NCBI GenBank assembly: GCA_025370845.1
Contig: JAMXFF010000016.1
Span: 67,919 to 120,125, forward strand
Source of the DNA: Laspinema palackyanum D2a
GTDB taxonomy: Bacteria > Cyanobacteriota > Cyanobacteriia > Cyanobacteriales > Laspinemataceae
Direction: 5' to 3'
DNA length: 52,207 bases
Below the pieces are notes generated by a model. It did not search any database. It was not told where the DNA came from and saw only the letters and a program-made list of their open reading frames with translations. Shown in pieces: positions 43,630 through 52,207 of this stretch. The translations under genes were made by a program, and so were the position numbers. How positions within the stretch are numbered: the first letter of the stretch is position 1; every line of letters starts with the position of its first letter.

Positions 43630-43719
43630 CTGAGGAAAAATCCCTCCCAGCCACCCGATGACAAGGGTCAAGACAGTAGGCTAGAATTTCGGGAAATTTT
43701 ACAAAGTCCGGTGGAGTTT

Positions 43720-44148
43720 ATGAAACCGATTAAAACGGTGGCGGCGGGTTTGTTACTGGCTTTTGGATTTTTGTGTCTGATTATGGCTGTCTCGGGGTTA
43801 GTGGAAACTGATCCCAGGCAGCAAGACGAGGGCAGAGATCTAGCGATCGGAGGATTCGGGATTGGAATTCCAGCAGTGGGGGTGGGCGGATGGTTAGCCT
43901 GGGGTCTCTATCGCGAGGGCAAAAATAAAAAGCTGGCGTTGGATAAGGAGGAAAGCGATCGCCTCCAGGGGATCTTTTTCCAAATGATCCGCGAACGCAA
44001 TGGTCAAATTACGGCCCTGCACTTTGCGATGGAAACTCAGTTGTCTGCTCATCAAGCCAAGCAATATTTAGAAGAACAAGCCAAAGAGTTTAATGCCGAT
44101 TTTGAGGTGAGCGATCGCGGGGATGTGGTCTATCGATTTAAAGTCTAA
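43720..44148 (+). CDS. Small membrane protein with winged-helix-like C-terminus (copy 1)
   Basis: The 142-residue protein has two membrane helices (about 4-26 and 48-70) and a cytosolic C-terminal half (DRLQGIFFQMIRERNGQITA then LHFAMETQLSAHQAKQYLEE). That half looks like a winged-helix or RHH-like module ending AKEFNADFEVSDRGDVVYRF. It is paralogous to the next gene (44263-44691). GGTGGAG just before ATG 43720 is a good ribosome site, so the ATG is chosen over GTG 43711. Function unknown. Confidence 0.72.
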   Translation: MKPIKTVAAGLLLAFGFLCLIMAVSGLVETDPRQQDEGRDLAIGGFGIGIPAVGVGGWLAWGLYREGKNKKLALDKEESDRLQGIFFQMIRERNGQITALHFAMETQLSAHQAKQYLEEQAKEFNADFEVSDRGDVVYRFKV

Positions 44149-44262: not shown

Positions 44263-44691
44263 ATGAAAGGGTTGAAAAAGTCAGCATCAACACTATTTAT
44301 GCTCCTGGGACTCTCCGTTCTAGGAGTGGCTATGGAGAAGTTAAATAATCCAGATACCCCCGCCCAAGATAGAGAGGAACTCAAAGCCTGCATTCTTTTA
44401 TTGGGCGTCCCTTTTACCCTCCAAGGAGGGGCAATGGCTTGGGGATTGTATCGGGATAACAAGGAAGGTTATCATTTGCACGTTAAACAGGAACGCGATC
44501 GCATTCAGTCGATTTTTTATCAGGTAATCCAGGCCCATGATGGCAAAATTACGGTGATGCGCTTAGCAATGGAAGCCGGATTATCGGTGAAAAAAGCCCG
44601 AAAATTTTTAGATGAAAAAGCCGTGGAATTTGACGCTGATTTTGAAGTCAGCGATCGCGGGGAAATTTACTACTCGTTTAATTTTGGCTAA
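44263..44691 (+). CDS. Small membrane protein with winged-helix-like C-terminus (copy 2)
   Basis: The 142-residue protein resembles the preceding gene: two membrane helices (about 9-24 and 45-65), the shared DRIQSIFYQVIQAHDGKITV block, AMEAGLSVKKARKFLDEKA and FDADFEVSDRGEIYYSF. The gap between the two genes is 114 bases. This is a tandem duplication with clear divergence in the first half. The function is unknown; the DNA-binding-like tail could instead bind protein. Confidence 0.72.
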   Translation: MKGLKKSASTLFMLLGLSVLGVAMEKLNNPDTPAQDREELKACILLLGVPFTLQGGAMAWGLYRDNKEGYHLHVKQERDRIQSIFYQVIQAHDGKITVMRLAMEAGLSVKKARKFLDEKAVEFDADFEVSDRGEIYYSFNFG

Positions 44692-45372: not shown

Positions 45373-48171
45373 ATGAAAGTCTGGCTGCACGGTTTGTTTT
45401 CTGTCATTTTCTGGCTATGGAATCTCACATTTTTAGGCATTGTTTATCTGGGTATTTTACCTTGGATAGGCATCCCCTTAATTCGGGCAACCGTTGAGGG
45501 AATCATCCCCCTAGAATTTACCCTGGCAGTCACCGGGGCGATCGCCATTCCCACGGTTTGTACGGGAATTGGGATGAAGTTACGCAAACATCCCTTACAA
45601 CTGATTCGCCTCTTTTATGGCGTCGAAGCACCGTTATTTACCCTCTGCCTGGTACGGTTATTCATGCTGCGAGAAATGACCGCCGCCAGTAACCTGATGG
45701 TGGGAACCGCACTGCTGGCAATGGCTGCATTTGGCCTCGAATTATTCTATGGCTATGCCAAGGGCGATCGCAAGTTAGCTTGGCTACAACTGGCTACTCA
45801 TAGTTTAATGTTATTAATGGGCCTCTATCTAGGCGCATTATTACTCTTCTATGTTGTTCCTTTCACCGTCTTTTTTGCTGGCTACCTGATCCGATTGGAT
45901 TGGGTAGAGGCAATCCTTGATATATTCCGGTATAACTACTGGCAGGCTATCTGGTGGATACCGTTCTCCTCTTTCTTATGGGGATTCAGTGCCACCTTAT
46001 TTATTGCCATGCCATCGGCCCTAGCAACCTTCCACATCTACTCCGGCTACAAAATTATCCAACAATTTGCCACCCAGTATGGACGAAAGTGGGCAATATT
46101 TGGGTCAGGATTCGTAGTGACAGCCTGGATAGTGCTATTTTTGTCATTTCAGCAACAACCTCAAATTCAAGCCTTTAAAAGCTTAGAAAATCCAGCCTCA
46201 ACGGATCGAGAACGGCAAGAATTATTAGCCCAATCTGACTCCATTCGCCAAGGACTGCTCAATGCTTATTTACTCTCCTATCGCTATCTGAGTACCCACC
46301 AAGATAATAATCATATCCGGTTCATGTACCAGGACCTCCTGGACATAGATGAATCGGCGGCGCAAGTCTTGCAAAATTGGTATAATGGATTAATGTCACC
46401 CTTTTTGTACCAAGGGTCACGAGAAGATAGCGAAAAAGCCGCCACCCTTTACGAGCAATTTTTTGATACGCCCATCCAAAAGGGAGAAGCCAAAACCATT
46501 TTACACGCGGCGCAATCTACCTTTAATCGAGAAGAAGCCAAGGCGGGATTACTGAATATTAATGAACAACGAGTTTTGCTGACTCAACAAGAAATTACTG
46601 TCACGGAACGGGGAGATTGGGCGGATGTAGAATTGTATGAGGTGTATGAAAACCAAACCCCTCAAGATGAGGAGGTTTTTTACTATTTTTCCTTGCCTGA
46701 AAGTGCAGTATTAACCGGAGTCTGGTTAAATGAAACTGCCGATCGCAGCGATCGCTATGTCTTCCAAATTTCCCCCCGGGGTGCAGCCCAACAGGTATAT
46801 AATGATCAAGTGCGACGCAGTATTGATCCAGCACTACTGGAACAAGTTGGACCGCGACAATATCGCATCCGAGTGTTTCCCGTCCCCGCCCGCCTCACTT
46901 CCTTTGACAATACTAACCGCCTAGAACAACCGAAACAGCATCTTTGGTTAACTTATAAAGTCATGCAAAGCCCCCAAGGTTGGGCAATGCCACAATTGGC
47001 GGAAAAGCGGAACGTTTTTTGGAACTCCAAAACCCAGCGCCAGTATAACGGAGAAACAGTAAAACGCCTCGGTGATGCTTGGATGCCCGACTTTCTCCCG
47101 GCAACCGATTCGCCCTCGGGAACCGCACATCAGGTTACTTTACCGGGAGATTATCAGATTTCGGCACAACCCCTAACCGAAACGGATTATATCTTACCCC
47201 AAGGGAAACGGATTGCTGTCATCGTCGATCGCTCCTATAGTATGCGATCGCACGCCAAAGAAGTCACAGAAACCGTAAATTGGCTAAAACAAAACGGATT
47301 TGCCGATAACCGTTTTGATAACAACGATGCGGATATCTATTTAACCGCCTCACCCGGTGCGATTCCCCTGCGTTTGGACAATCTCAGTGAGTTGAATCCC
47401 GCCAAAATCACCTATTATGGCAGTCTCAACTATCGGGGAATGTTGCAGCAGTTCCAGGAATTGCAGGGAGATACCACTTATGATGCAGTCGCCTTAATTA
47501 GCGATCGCGGCAGTTATGAATTAGCCAAAGATAGCCCTGATTTGCTCACCCTTTCCAGTCCCTTATGGATGGTCCATTTAGGAGGATTACCCCGGGCGTA
47601 TGATGACGGCACTTTACAAGCGATTCAAGGCACTGGCGGGGGCGTTTCTACGGACCTAGAGGAGGTATTACAGCGCATCGCCACCACTGCAAAATTAGGC
47701 CCATCTACGGTGAGTGTGGTGGATGGATATCGCTGGGTTGTAGAGAAACCGGCAAAAGCAGATCTTGCCAGTTTACCGCAAAAACTAGCCAGTGCAACAG
47801 TTCCAGACAAAGCCGGATTAGACTCATTAGGGGCAAGGCAACTGATTCTCGCTTTATCCAAACAGATGGATGCGGCAAGTATAGCCGATTTAGATGCGAT
47901 TCATGCCATTGCAAAACACTATGAAATTGTCTCCCCTTATTCCTCGGCGATCGTGCTTGTTAACGAGGAACAAAAGCAGCAGTTAAAAGAGGCAGAATCT
48001 CGCAGCGATCGCTTTGAACGGGAAATCGAAGATGGAACCGAACAATTGCAGCAACCGGACGATATGATGAGTGTGCCGGTACCGGAACCTCATCAATGGG
48101 TGGGGATGATTGGGGCGACTGGACTGTTGATTTTTGCCAAGCGCAAATGGGGTAAAAAATCCGTGGGATAA
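45373..48171 (+). CDS. PEP-CTERM family integral membrane protein (VIT and vWA domains)
   Basis: The 932-residue protein has about seven or eight membrane helices in the first 270 residues, a VIT-like beta domain (about 395-495, VYENQTPQDEEVFYYFSLPE), and a vWA domain with MIDAS DxSxS in IAVIVDRSYSMRS (about 613). A long alpha/beta stretch follows. The C-terminus reads MMSVPVPEPHQWVGMIGATG then a helix and KRKWGKK, a PEP-CTERM sorting signal. This matches the known family of exosortase-linked integral membrane proteins, which I recall as TIGR02921. It implies an exosortase/PEP-CTERM export system elsewhere in the genome. Hairpin terminator at 48182. Confidence 0.9.
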   Translation: MKVWLHGLFSVIFWLWNLTFLGIVYLGILPWIGIPLIRATVEGIIPLEFTLAVTGAIAIPTVCTGIGMKLRKHPLQLIRLFYGVEAPLFTLCLVRLFMLREMTAASNLMVGTALLAMAAFGLELFYGYAKGDRKLAWLQLATHSLMLLMGLYLGALLLFYVVPFTVFFAGYLIRLDWVEAILDIFRYNYWQAIWWIPFSSFLWGFSATLFIAMPSALATFHIYSGYKIIQQFATQYGRKWAIFGSGFVVTAWIVLFLSFQQQPQIQAFKSLENPASTDRERQELLAQSDSIRQGLLNAYLLSYRYLSTHQDNNHIRFMYQDLLDIDESAAQVLQNWYNGLMSPFLYQGSREDSEKAATLYEQFFDTPIQKGEAKTILHAAQSTFNREEAKAGLLNINEQRVLLTQQEITVTERGDWADVELYEVYENQTPQDEEVFYYFSLPESAVLTGVWLNETADRSDRYVFQISPRGAAQQVYNDQVRRSIDPALLEQVGPRQYRIRVFPVPARLTSFDNTNRLEQPKQHLWLTYKVMQSPQGWAMPQLAEKRNVFWNSKTQRQYNGETVKRLGDAWMPDFLPATDSPSGTAHQVTLPGDYQISAQPLTETDYILPQGKRIAVIVDRSYSMRSHAKEVTETVNWLKQNGFADNRFDNNDADIYLTASPGAIPLRLDNLSELNPAKITYYGSLNYRGMLQQFQELQGDTTYDAVALISDRGSYELAKDSPDLLTLSSPLWMVHLGGLPRAYDDGTLQAIQGTGGGVSTDLEEVLQRIATTAKLGPSTVSVVDGYRWVVEKPAKADLASLPQKLASATVPDKAGLDSLGARQLILALSKQMDAASIADLDAIHAIAKHYEIVSPYSSAIVLVNEEQKQQLKEAESRSDRFEREIEDGTEQLQQPDDMMSVPVPEPHQWVGMIGATGLLIFAKRKWGKKSVG

Positions 48172-48623: not shown

Positions 48624-49178
48624 ATGGCAACGACACTCGCAGAAATTGGACAATACCTGGATAACCGGGGATGGAACTATGATTTGCAAGAGGCAAACTC
48701 GCAGATTATCACGGGATACAAAGCGGAGAATGTTGAGCAATTTCTCATGGTGATTCAGCTACAGGAAGAGGGGGAGTATCTGTCTGTGTTTGTCCCCGAA
48801 CTGTTACAGGTGAAAGATCATGTTTATAAAGGTGTGGTGTTTCAAACCATGCTGGCGATCGCCTGGTCCGTGAAGTTCCTGCGGTGGGAATATGACCCCA
48901 GGGATGGGGAAATCCGCGCCAGTATCGGGTTTGCCTTGGAAGATGCCGCTTTGACCGAACGCCAATTTAACCGGGTCCTGAACGCGCTGATTCATCTGGT
49001 GGATGAGGTGGCAATGCCGCGTCTCCAGGCGGTTTTGGCAACTGGGAATGATCCGGGTGACCCGGAGATGGAACAAGATATCGCTGCTGCACTCGCACAA
49101 TTGCTGCCGGAAGGGAGTTTAGAAGCTCTCCAACCGGCGATCGCCTCCCGTTTGCAGTCCAGATTAGAAGCGGAATAA
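48624..49178 (+). CDS. YbjN-domain protein
   Basis: The 184-residue protein has a YbjN-like alpha/beta fold: QYLDNRGWNYDLQEANSQII, VFVPELLQVKDHVYKGVVFQ, TMLAIAWSVKFLRWEYDPRD and GEIRASIGFALEDAALTERQ. The fold resembles type III secretion chaperones and is found in sensory or chaperone-like proteins. A second YbjN-like domain occurs in the protein at 51258, and the two share RWxxxPxDGEVRI-type sequence. It begins a run of four co-oriented genes with a sigma-like factor and DUF1822. Function unknown. Confidence 0.78.
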   Translation: MATTLAEIGQYLDNRGWNYDLQEANSQIITGYKAENVEQFLMVIQLQEEGEYLSVFVPELLQVKDHVYKGVVFQTMLAIAWSVKFLRWEYDPRDGEIRASIGFALEDAALTERQFNRVLNALIHLVDEVAMPRLQAVLATGNDPGDPEMEQDIAAALAQLLPEGSLEALQPAIASRLQSRLEAE

Positions 49179-49218
49179 TCAGGAATAATTCATATCACCG
49201 GCAGTCAGGAGGTGACCG

Positions 49219-50094
49219 ATGAGCGACTTTCGCATAGACAGTTTCGAGTCCCGGATAAATGGCGATCGCGTAAATCTACCCTTGCCCGAATCCCCTATTA
49301 TCGCTGACAATCATCCCTGTACCCCTCGTCAGCGCGATCGCAATATGGACTCTATCGCCGCACTCTGCAAGGAACTCAACGAACTGGTGCGCCAAGGGTG
49401 CCAGTACCCGCCGCAACATCTCCAGCGGCGGAAAATCATGGACCAAATTGTTCGGAAAATCGAACAGTCTGGCAAACTCTATCTCAAGCGCACTCGGGAG
49501 AACTCCCTGGACTATCCCGATGCCTTACAGCAGACTTGGCTGTATTTTTCCCATAACCTGTACCAAACTTACGACCCCGATCGCCCGGGCAGTTGCCTGA
49601 TACCCTGGTTATGGGAGTATCTGAAAAAACGACTCCTCGACATCGAGATCGGCGACTGTACTCGCACCACAGACCCCGAAACCGGCGAACGGAAGCGCCG
49701 GAAAATTTTCTACGCGCCACCTGTGGCAGACTCCGAGGGAAACTTAATCAATCCCCTGGACTTTATCCCTGCACCCAACGATCCCAAACCCCTGCTCGAT
49801 CGCACCTTAGACTGGGTGAACAGCGACCCTAGCGGCATCCTACAGGGAGTTACCATGCGCGATCGCCAGGATATAACCGCCCAAGTTGTCTTGAAATTGC
49901 TTTTACCTCCCGATTGCCTGAATCAGACCGAAATCGCCAAGCACTTGCACCTGCCACAACCCAGCAGCATCCAAACCTTCTACAAAAAATGCCTGCGCCT
50001 GTTGCTGGAATATTGGGAACTGGACGAACCCCAAATTCAAGCCATCTTGCCACCCAAAAAACCAAGCCAAAAACAACCCCGAGGTGAGTCCTAA
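49219..50094 (+). CDS. Sigma-70-like protein
   Basis: The 291-residue protein looks like a divergent sigma-70 family factor. A helical stretch with YPDALQQTWLYFSHNLYQTY, DPDRPGSCLIPWLWEYLKKR (about 97-140) resembles region 2, and a C-terminal NQTEIAKHLHLPQPSSIQTF, YKKCLRLLLEYW segment (about 232-263) resembles a region 4 helix-turn-helix. Such sigma-like proteins are common in cyanobacteria next to DUF1822 genes. A perfect AGGAGGTGA Shine-Dalgarno precedes ATG 49219. Its stop overlaps the DUF1822 start (TAATG at 50092-50096), implying coupled translation. Whether it binds RNA polymerase is unproven. Confidence 0.75.
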   Translation: MSDFRIDSFESRINGDRVNLPLPESPIIADNHPCTPRQRDRNMDSIAALCKELNELVRQGCQYPPQHLQRRKIMDQIVRKIEQSGKLYLKRTRENSLDYPDALQQTWLYFSHNLYQTYDPDRPGSCLIPWLWEYLKKRLLDIEIGDCTRTTDPETGERKRRKIFYAPPVADSEGNLINPLDFIPAPNDPKPLLDRTLDWVNSDPSGILQGVTMRDRQDITAQVVLKLLLPPDCLNQTEIAKHLHLPQPSSIQTFYKKCLRLLLEYWELDEPQIQAILPPKKPSQKQPRGES

Positions 50095-50906
50095 TGAGTA
50101 CAACCCAGATTCGAGAACAACCGATAGACGACTTCAGTATCACCATTCCCCTCACGGAGGAAGATAGAGACATTGCCGATATCTTTGCCGTCACCCAACC
50201 CAACCCCGAAGCAGCAGAACGAGTGCGCCGTAACACCCTCAGTGTAATTGCCCTCGCCTTTTATTTAGACCTGCACCAAATCGAAACCGATATCACATCG
50301 GGACAACTCTGGAACCGAAAACAACGGCAAACCCAGGATATTGCAGACTTGCCATTACCGGGAATCGGATGGATAGAATGTCGCGCCTTTAGCCCCCACC
50401 AAACCGAAATCCGCCTCCCGCCACACCCCGAACCCCAAAGAATTGGCTATGTGGGAGTCGAACTCAACCCCGACACCCCCGAAACTGCCAAACTCCTGGG
50501 ATTTGTCGCCCCCTCCGACAGCAAAACCCCCCTGGAAACCTTACACCGAGAGCAACTAGGCTCCCTAGACGACCTCCTAGATGTCCTCACCCGCCTAGAA
50601 CTCCTAAAAGCAATCTTAGCCACCCGAGACGACTCACCCCTACCCGAAACCCTGCGCCAAAGAGCCATTACCGAACTGCAACGAGTCTACGCCGCCAGTC
50701 CCGACGAACCCTGGGAATGGGCAGGTTTAGCCGAACAGCGATTATTTGACGACACTCTCACCCGTAACAGTCAAGACCTCATGGTAACAAAAAACCGAGA
50801 AACCCCCACCCAATCAGACCCCGATAAACACCGCCTCCACCAGCGCTCATTTTTAGAGTCAGTCCTAGAAGAAATGGACGAACAATGGCGCAAATTAACC
50901 GAATAA
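50094..50906 (+). CDS. DUF1822 family protein
   Basis: The 270-residue protein is of the cyanobacterial DUF1822 type: SITIPLTEEDRDIADIFAVT, NTLSVIALAFYLDLHQIETD, LPLPGIGWIECRAFSPHQTE and GYVGVELNPDTPETAKLLGF. It shares one base with the stop of the sigma-like gene, so they are translationally coupled. The biochemical role is unknown. In cyanobacteria DUF1822 genes often neighbour sigma-like and CHAT/TPR or CHASE2 genes; here a YbjN-TPR gene follows. Antitoxin, anti-sigma or scaffold functions are possible but unsupported by sequence. Confidence 0.82.
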   Translation: MSTTQIREQPIDDFSITIPLTEEDRDIADIFAVTQPNPEAAERVRRNTLSVIALAFYLDLHQIETDITSGQLWNRKQRQTQDIADLPLPGIGWIECRAFSPHQTEIRLPPHPEPQRIGYVGVELNPDTPETAKLLGFVAPSDSKTPLETLHREQLGSLDDLLDVLTRLELLKAILATRDDSPLPETLRQRAITELQRVYAASPDEPWEWAGLAEQRLFDDTLTRNSQDLMVTKNRETPTQSDPDKHRLHQRSFLESVLEEMDEQWRKLTE

Positions 50907-50943
50907 CTCCAGTCGCAACAAACGGCGGGGGTTAAAACCCCAT

Positions 50944-51090
50944 AGCAACAAACGGCGGGGGTTAAAACCCCCGCCTAATAGCTAAAGTCGTCTAAAGACG
51001 ACTGCAAGTCTTATCCCGTGGTGTTTTTAGTCGGTTTTTAACCGACTTGAGCTGTTAGGCGGGGGTTTAAACCCCCGCCGGGTGTTGCTT
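50944..51090. mobile_element. 147-bp element with 40-bp inverted ends around GGCGGGGG palindromes
   Basis: The left end AGCAACAAACGGCGGGGGTT and the right end GGCGGGGGTTTAAACCCCCG onward to GGGTGTTGCTT are inverted copies. Inside are AGTCGTCTAAAGACGACT and AGTCGGTTTTTAACCGACT hairpins. A partial extra copy of the left end (50915-50943) precedes it. This is a small non-coding dispersed element between the DUF1822 gene and the YbjN-TPR gene. Confidence 0.78.
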
Positions 51091-51257
51091 AGTTCGTAGT
51101 AACGCCTTCAGGCGTTATCCCTCTTCCTTCGCGCACACTAGCGAGCAAGATGCAAAGCCTGCGGCATAGCTTCGCTTACCGCACTCCCAAAATACCCGAA
51201 TAACTCCGAGAACCGCTATATCCTCCCCCCCCCCAACCCAAATCACAACCCAAACCC
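51091..51257. repeat. Palindromic repeat copy and dispersed repeat upstream of YbjN-TPR
   Basis: GTTCGTAGTAACGCCTTCAG onward (51091-51117) is one copy of the 35-bp family. About 51143-51185 (GAGCAAGATGCAAAGCCTGC...CTTCGCTTACCGCACTC) is a diverged copy of the block near 160-203. A C-run (CCTCCCCCCCCCC) near 51222-51234 precedes the next gene. Confidence 0.7.
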
Positions 51258-52207
51258 ATGACAACCACACTCAAACAAATCACCCAATTCCTCGACACCC
51301 AAAACTGCACCTATCAAACCGAACCCGAAAACAACCGCATCCACCTCACCAGCGAGGGACTGCCAGTCATCCTCCACCTAGAAGAAAACGGCGAACTCTT
51401 ACGCTGCTTTATTCCGCAACTCCTCACCATCCCAGCAGAACATCCCTACGCCGAAACCGCAATGGCAACCCTGCTGCACCTCGGGAGGGAACTCAAACTC
51501 GTGCGCTGGCAACGGAACCCCTCCGATGGCGAAGTCCGCATCACCACCGAAATCCCCCTAGAAGATGGCACCCTCACCCCCCGCCAGTTCCAACGCACCC
51601 TCACCGGGTTAGTGGATTTAGGAAAACTCGCAAAACAGCGCCTAGAAACCGTATTAACCACCGGAGACGATCCAGGAATGCCAGACCCCTCGGATCCCTC
51701 CACCGCCAATGAGGTCCTCCAATTTCTGCAAGCGCTGATAGAGGCAGAAGTCACCGGAGGGGAGGAATTCGTCCACCCCCTATTATCCGCCCATCTCTCC
51801 TTACTAGACCAACGGTTTGTGGCAGCAATCACCACCCTCGCCCATGCTATCTATGCTCAAGGGGATTTACAACAGTCGGAGATGATGGCGGGATTGATTG
51901 GAAACCTCAGTATCAGCATTCAAGAGTTTCCCGGGGGTAATTTTTTGGAGAATCAGAACATTGCCATTGCCGGTTACCAGTTAGTCTTGGAACGATTTCC
52001 CCGAGAGAGATCTCCCGACAAATACGCCCCAACCCTCACCAATCTGGGGAATGCCTACCGCAACCGCGCTGAAGTGGGAGACAATAGCGCCGAAAACCTG
52101 AGTTGGGCAATTGCTGCCTATCAGGAAGCTCAGGAAATCTACCGCCATCTGAAATTGTTCAAGGATTTGGCAGGCACTCTCAACAACCTGGGGATTGCCT
52201 ACTGCAA
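51258..52207 (+). CDS. YbjN-TPR protein, cut by window end
   Basis: At least 316 residues are visible, with no stop before the edge. The first 150 residues are YbjN-like (LHLGRELKLVRWQRNPSDGE then VRITTEIPLEDGTLTPRQF), a paralogue of the gene at 48624. After a linker the sequence becomes helical with TPR-like units (LGNAYRNRAEVGDNSAENLS, AIAAYQEAQEIYRHLKLFKD, LAGTLNNLGIAYC). Cyanobacterial proteins starting like this often continue with more TPRs and a C-terminal CHAT caspase-like protease; that part is outside the window and cannot be confirmed. Confidence 0.82.
   Translation, partial: MTTTLKQITQFLDTQNCTYQTEPENNRIHLTSEGLPVILHLEENGELLRCFIPQLLTIPAEHPYAETAMATLLHLGRELKLVRWQRNPSDGEVRITTEIPLEDGTLTPRQFQRTLTGLVDLGKLAKQRLETVLTTGDDPGMPDPSDPSTANEVLQFLQALIEAEVTGGEEFVHPLLSAHLSLLDQRFVAAITTLAHAIYAQGDLQQSEMMAGLIGNLSISIQEFPGGNFLENQNIAIAGYQLVLERFPRERSPDKYAPTLTNLGNAYRNRAEVGDNSAENLSWAIAAYQEAQEIYRHLKLFKDLAGTLNNLGIAYC

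Follow-up and report, generated by a model that had tools for sequence, protein, structure and literature searches.

In a 52,207-nucleotide window of the Laspinema palackyanum D2a genome (contig JAMXFF010000016.1), the last four genes, at window positions 48624-52207, form a conserved cassette that is, on balance, probably a protease-controlled sigma-factor switch independent of clustered regularly interspaced short palindromic repeats (CRISPR). The genes encode a stand-alone YbjN-like protein, a protein that looks like a divergent sigma factor of the extracytoplasmic function (ECF) type, a short DUF1822 protein and a YbjN-TPR-CHAT protein. In the proposed switch, the sigma factor would be kept inactive by, or work jointly with, its DUF1822 partner; the YbjN-TPR-CHAT protein would use its TPR and YbjN parts to sense a signal and then activate its His-Cys CHAT protease, which would dock on a C-terminal module of DUF1822 and cut the linker beside a conserved arginine (Arg235 in the window protein), and the cut would free or arm the sigma factor. 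The stand-alone YbjN would act as a cofactor or sensor pairing with the protease's own YbjN domain, and the pair may sense or gate the protease. A protease-controlled sigma switch had been put forward in an original prediction from the letters of the DNA; it gains weight here from the shared C-terminal module, and we infer complex formation, inhibition and cleavage, as we do the cleavage site, the direction of the switch, its trigger and the role of YbjN. The genes themselves, the sigma fold, the retained His and Cys positions, the conserved gene set and the common module have computational support. For the other suggestions of the original prediction, DUF1822 as an anchor, YbjN as a chaperone or sensor and a part in defence, the analysis brought no support.

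The list of open reading frames (ORFs) places the four co-oriented genes where the original prediction had put them. The sigma and DUF1822 genes are coupled as foreseen, through an exact TAATG in which the sigma stop (TAA, 50092-50094) and the DUF1822 start (ATG, 50094-50096) share one base. The gene for the YbjN-TPR-CHAT protein begins at 51258 on the forward strand, reaches the window edge at 52207 and goes on past 100 N of scaffold gap (52208-52307 on the window scale, L009:6627-6726) that falls inside tandem TPR repeats. Beyond the gap come more TPRs and then the CHAT domain that had been expected there, ending at L009:9604 (55185 on the window scale) and matching Pfam PF12770 at 122.2 bits (cut-off 24). 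The gap probably explains both the position of the window edge and the frameshifted look of the gene; orthologues in genomes G004 and G006 are uninterrupted YbjN-TPR-CHAT genes of 1275 aa (L049) and 1230 aa (L050). The stand-alone YbjN-like protein (48624..49178, forward strand, 184 aa) and the YbjN domain of the window TPR protein score 14.3 and 20.5 bits against Pfam PF10722 (cut-off 22), the domains of the two TPR-CHAT orthologues score 26.8 and 24.1, and the two window domains are 38% identical to each other.

The 291-aa product of 49219..50094 (forward strand) looks like a divergent ECF-type sigma factor by fold and by profile-profile comparison. The fold comparison finds sigma regions 2 and 4, with the sigma-like part lying within residues 45-272 and a low-confidence N-terminal tail at residues 1-34. 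With all ten sigmas as reference, hhalign gave 87-90%, against 0.88% for the best of 20 shuffles and at most 0.20% for DUF1822, YbjN and CHAT alignments; with the five short sigmas alone as reference, it gave 21% and 45%. A profile search of solved-structure sequences ranked ECF SigK first (E=0.085), with designed proteins next (0.12). The sigma-like identity in the original prediction thus stood by these comparisons but not by family models: the window protein matched no sigma model in Pfam or NCBIfam, and in an alignment of 30 members that includes it (A1), each of four Pfam sigma models matched one member and TIGR02937 matched five (E 0.01). The orthologues in G004 and G006 are 85% and 81% identical to the window protein.

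DUF1822 neighbors are non-random, as the original prediction requires. We sampled 23 DUF1822 genes from the E-value-ordered matches listed (rows 8, 16 and so on to 144, plus 4, 20, 36, 100 and 132, counted by hand), and a sigma-type gene adjoins 18 of them: 13 belong to the present sigma family, and in five the upstream protein scores above the Pfam cut-off for sigma region 4. Among the exceptions in the sample, three loci (L196, L197, L206) have a large upstream gene with no Pfam sigma match and one (L195) is cut off. In the fifth, L200:7906-8844, the DUF1822 gene breaks the pairing rule, with neither a sigma nor a caspase-type gene recognized nearby. The frequent partners of the sigma family are a full-length DUF1822 and a third protein that combines a CHAT or caspase-type region with CHASE2, STAND, periplasmic-binding or TPR parts; seven of ten third genes scanned matched CHAT, together with CHASE2, periplasmic-binding or TPR parts, and further ones carry STAND, NACHT or AAA-type parts. 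Some sigma relatives have no DUF1822 recognized nearby (for example L106, L115 and L120). On the Nostoc and Fortiea contigs L106, L120, L156 and L157, a protein of about 1950 aa follows the sigma-like gene in place of DUF1822.

The short DUF1822 of the window (50094..50906, forward strand, 270 aa) is an unambiguous family member (PF08852, 110.5 bits, E=1.2e-31, cut-off 25) and covers only profile positions 1-225 of 370, so it is not a full-length DUF1822; a different C-terminal stretch comes after the matched part. Judged from sequence, the short form consists of an N-terminal DUF1822 domain, a variable linker and a C-terminal helix-like block, and its last ~90 residues make up a module of conserved block, variable linker and helix-like block.

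To follow the four-gene set across cyanobacteria we searched 59 genomes, the present one included, with YbjN; a YbjN-domain profile built from the TPR protein was run on 386 genomes of the phylum and located TPR-CHAT-type genes in six of them. Together the searches yielded 12 YbjN-TPR-CHAT genes, one of which (L171) is cut by a contig end. At all 11 uncut loci, which come from two families, a stand-alone YbjN, the sigma factor and a short DUF1822 lie alongside. Three loci, including those of G004 and G006, have the gene order of the window, and eight read YbjN, YbjN-TPR-CHAT, sigma, DUF1822. That one gene set is retained in two orders speaks for function, and the agreement of G004 and G006 with the window, together with the other order in eight loci, argues against chance. 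Small ORFs are interspersed in three cassettes (L169, L170, L172), and in L173 an in-frame TGA lies within the matched stretch of the stand-alone YbjN. Two congeneric genomes, G002 and G007, lack the island and have its flanks directly side by side, which marks it as accessory. Elsewhere in the D2a genome (C62, L176:6880-13265), another YbjN adjoins genes for a 713-aa sigma region 4 protein, a DUF1822 of 403 aa and a CHASE2-caspase protein; gene runs with YbjN at L177 and L178 resemble it. We also considered whether the YbjN-TPR-CHAT pair recruited sigma-DUF1822 twice, and do not claim it: a single sigma clade is not rejected (approximately unbiased test, p 0.40). In the best sigma tree the 11 YbjN-type sigmas are split, and in the DUF1822 tree they fall together, but without support.

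The proteases next to short DUF1822 proteins are related to one another. In a quick tree that included 11 other CHATs hand-picked from neighboring loci, the TPR-CHATs beside short DUF1822 formed one group (21 rows; SH-aLRT, a likelihood-based branch support, 100), within which the 11 YbjN-bearing proteins formed a subgroup (SH-aLRT 99). A His (H208/H209) and a Cys (C251/C252, alignment A7), presumably the CHAT catalytic dyad judging by their positions, show no variation across all 17 of the clade members aligned, and these motifs recur in the window gene as HHA and CCET. A clade profile marked 44 strong places (>350 bits) in the 59 genomes, and loci from the other searches raised the total to 48 distinct genes. 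Within 6 kb, 31 of the 48 have both sigma and DUF1822, four have a module protein but nothing that matches sigma, one has a sigma match only and 12 have neither sigma nor module. Four of these 12 (L233, L235, L242, L243) lie at or close to contig ends, a neighbor in L246 matches sigma region 4 weakly (E=0.0094), and five (L235, L237, L238, L239, L241) have a different neighbor of ~300 aa, alike by eye, which in L237 has no Pfam match. Such ~300-aa proteins, near the DUF1822-less TPR-CHATs of L237, L239 and L241 and also of L235, L238 and L245, may be an alternative partner family.

Plasmid pAQ6 of Picosynechococcus sp. PCC 7002, a genetically tractable strain, carries a related set of sigma, DUF1822 and TPR-CHAT, the first two being genes RS15030 and RS15035; the module profile does not detect the module in its DUF1822. 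The CHAT gene of pAQ6 (L222:3578-6898) is annotated from 5207, whereas an ORF of 1106 aa is open from 3578; the true start may lie upstream of the annotated one.

The C-terminal module tracks this protease clade. A module profile matches the short DUF1822 proteins beside TPR-CHATs, and it also matches mid-protein in the long DUF1822 of L249-L251, loci with a TPR-CHAT as well as an EACC2-type protein nearby. It further matches the C-terminus of XRE-type helix-turn-helix proteins (HTH_3, E 3e-9 to 5e-9) in L228, L229 and L234, where a TPR-CHAT is present with no sigma match. Across 122 rows outside profile building, module and TPR-CHAT occur together within 6 kb in 15, the module alone in three (L072, L084, L201), TPR-CHAT alone in two (L222, L247) and neither in 102 (Fisher p 1.7e-14), a value to be read knowing that L225-L251 were fetched for holding a TPR-CHAT, that rows are related and that some members enter through the divergent YbjN type. 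The module of the window itself is divergent, matching at E=0.003 a profile built without the window sequence. In YbjN-free and XRE rows the C-terminal block is the best conserved part. In L084 and L201, the module sits on a long DUF1822 with clade TPR-CHATs out of reach; the L201 neighbor, of 1721 aa, has what look by eye like WD40 repeats. A module common to DUF1822 and XRE proteins suggests a common logic, a protease cutting a tail on a transcription regulator, and in the sister loci a protease of this clade faces the module on an XRE-type DNA-binding protein instead. Taken together, a TPR-CHAT with retained His and Cys, a sigma factor, a tailed protein paired with it and a second DNA-binding protein bearing that tail are best accounted for by tail-directed action of the protease.

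The variable linker offers a candidate cleavage site. Of 26 module proteins, 25 carry an Arg or Lys at a distance of 9-14 residues ahead of the last block, a span chosen post hoc in a linker whose Arg plus Lys content of about 12% would give roughly half of such sequences one in a six-residue span by chance. The exception, L201, is likewise without a nearby TPR-CHAT. The residue after the linker Arg is most often Glu (16 of 29), as in the window protein, where Arg235 (codon 50796..50798, forward strand) is the predicted P1 residue. The 26 rows are related, some of them close copies of one another (three window-genus rows, L067/L072 and L249/L250), and nine YbjN-type rows, in some of which the anchor is misplaced, stand outside them. 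Given the chance level and the relatedness of rows, the linker Arg or Lys is moderate evidence of a cleavage site.

The cassette has a precedent in the CRISPR-linked CASP/Craspase system, for which the available text of Strecker et al. (2022, PMC10028731) describes a TPR-CHAT protease, Csx29, that cuts the sigma inhibitor Csx30, and cleavage that is abolished by a 20-residue truncation of the strictly required Csx30 C-terminal end. Both systems place a TPR-CHAT protease beside an ECF-type sigma factor (CASP-sigma in the CRISPR-linked one) and a third protein as would-be regulator and substrate; the partner there is Csx30 and here DUF1822, and the window cassette adds a YbjN pair. No Cas7-11/gRAMP-like gene was recognized in a reading of the ORFs of L009 and the last 8 kb of the window, made without a profile search. 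The four-gene set looks like a CRISPR-free cousin of that system. Proteolysis of a sigma partner is also the logic of DegS-RseA-sigmaE and RsiW-sigmaW as outlined in the same available text, where the anti-sigmas are membrane-bound.

The original prediction had called the system undescribed, which is half true. The available text of Kaur et al. (eLife 2021, PMC8195603) describes EACC2-caspase neighborhoods with an ECF sigma factor and DUF1822, and we take the wider sigma/DUF1822/third-protein neighborhoods to be these. Like the window, they combine sigma and DUF1822 genes with one whose product has a caspase-superfamily protease domain, but there that product consists of a constant N-terminal module, a caspase domain and a variable sensor at the C-terminus. 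The window protein instead begins with YbjN, continues with TPRs and ends in CHAT; the window set further differs in its short DUF1822 with another C-terminal tail and in the added stand-alone YbjN. No EACC2-type N-terminal module was matched in the window cassette with our own CASP profile of that part, which is not the authors' EACC2 model. For the TPR-CHAT version of the set we found no description in the open-licence literature, as far as its text was available, an absence that is no proof, and no open-licence paper that we found joins YbjN with a CHAT domain. Metacaspase operons that include sigma-70 factors, reported along with a metacaspase-CHASE2 protein (PLoS One 2012, PMC3501461), likewise have caspase-superfamily genes adjoining sigma genes, but these are metacaspases of myxobacterial and other operons, and the available text mentions no CHAT, DUF or YbjN. 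CHAT and CHASE2 are absent from the available main text of a 2024 survey of cyanobacterial sigma factors (PMC11119718).

Other arrangements of the same parts have to be weighed. DUF1822 could be an uncut assembly scaffold or a sigma co-activator, with CHAT hitting other targets (a death effector, for example) and the genes merely co-regulated. The available text of Kaur et al. (2021, PMC8195603) proposes autopeptidase activation of the caspase protein with the sigma factor as a later step, which fits such a reading, and the module is absent from 104 of 139 DUF1822/module rows, an EACC2-type protein being near 92 of the 104 instead. We nevertheless regard it as unlikely, since the module tracks the TPR-CHAT clade even where an XRE domain replaces sigma and the DUF1822 N-terminal domain. 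Alternatively, the module could be a docking or dimerization tail only, for instance a ligand of the TPR groove through which TPR-CHAT sequesters the sigma-DUF1822 complex with no cleavage. The C-terminal block, best conserved in YbjN-free and XRE rows, behaves as a docking element would; the CHAT His and Cys, however, remain invariant and the otherwise variable linker retains an Arg or Lys in most rows, and we consider docking alone improbable.

That the genes simply hitch-hike on mobile DNA and form no functional system seems to us very improbable. The island does vary within the genus, and related sigma-DUF1822 pairs are located on plasmids, but the same four genes recur in two orders at 11 loci from two families. 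DUF1822 had no match in a phage collection.

Around the cassette, a MITE-like repeat (MITE, miniature inverted-repeat transposable element; 50914-51133, core about 50945-51088, matched on both strands) lies between the DUF1822 and TPR-CHAT genes; the whole query region holding it gave 134 genome matches, most to the repeat itself. On the left the island is flanked by a TIGR02921-family PEP-CTERM protein with a VIT domain (45373-48171, 1085 bits), and on the right by a 554-aa gene that we presume to be ABC1-kinase-like. Further left, 43711-44148 and 44263-44691 encode a tandem pair of small membrane-like proteins, alike by eye; the second was scanned and gave nothing above Pfam or NCBIfam cut-offs.

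The D2a genome has at least 34 CHAT-domain matches, and CHAT is among the matches listed in 58 of the 59 genomes; to our knowledge, what CHAT proteases cut in cyanobacteria is an open question. A protease-controlled sigma switch would supply one clade of them with a transcriptional output and with candidates for the substrate and the cut site, and would give DUF1822 a testable role. More tentatively, and with somewhat less confidence than in the switch itself, we suggest that there may be a broad CRISPR-free class of cyanobacterial TPR-CHATs that act on a portable tail of ~90 residues, a docking helix and an Arg-containing cleavable linker, carried by DUF1822 or XRE-type regulators; in it a caspase-like protease would directly rewrite transcription, and the YbjN pair would be the sensor module of one branch. 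The switch would, moreover, point to Csx29-Csx30-sigma as one case of a wider protease-to-transcription logic.

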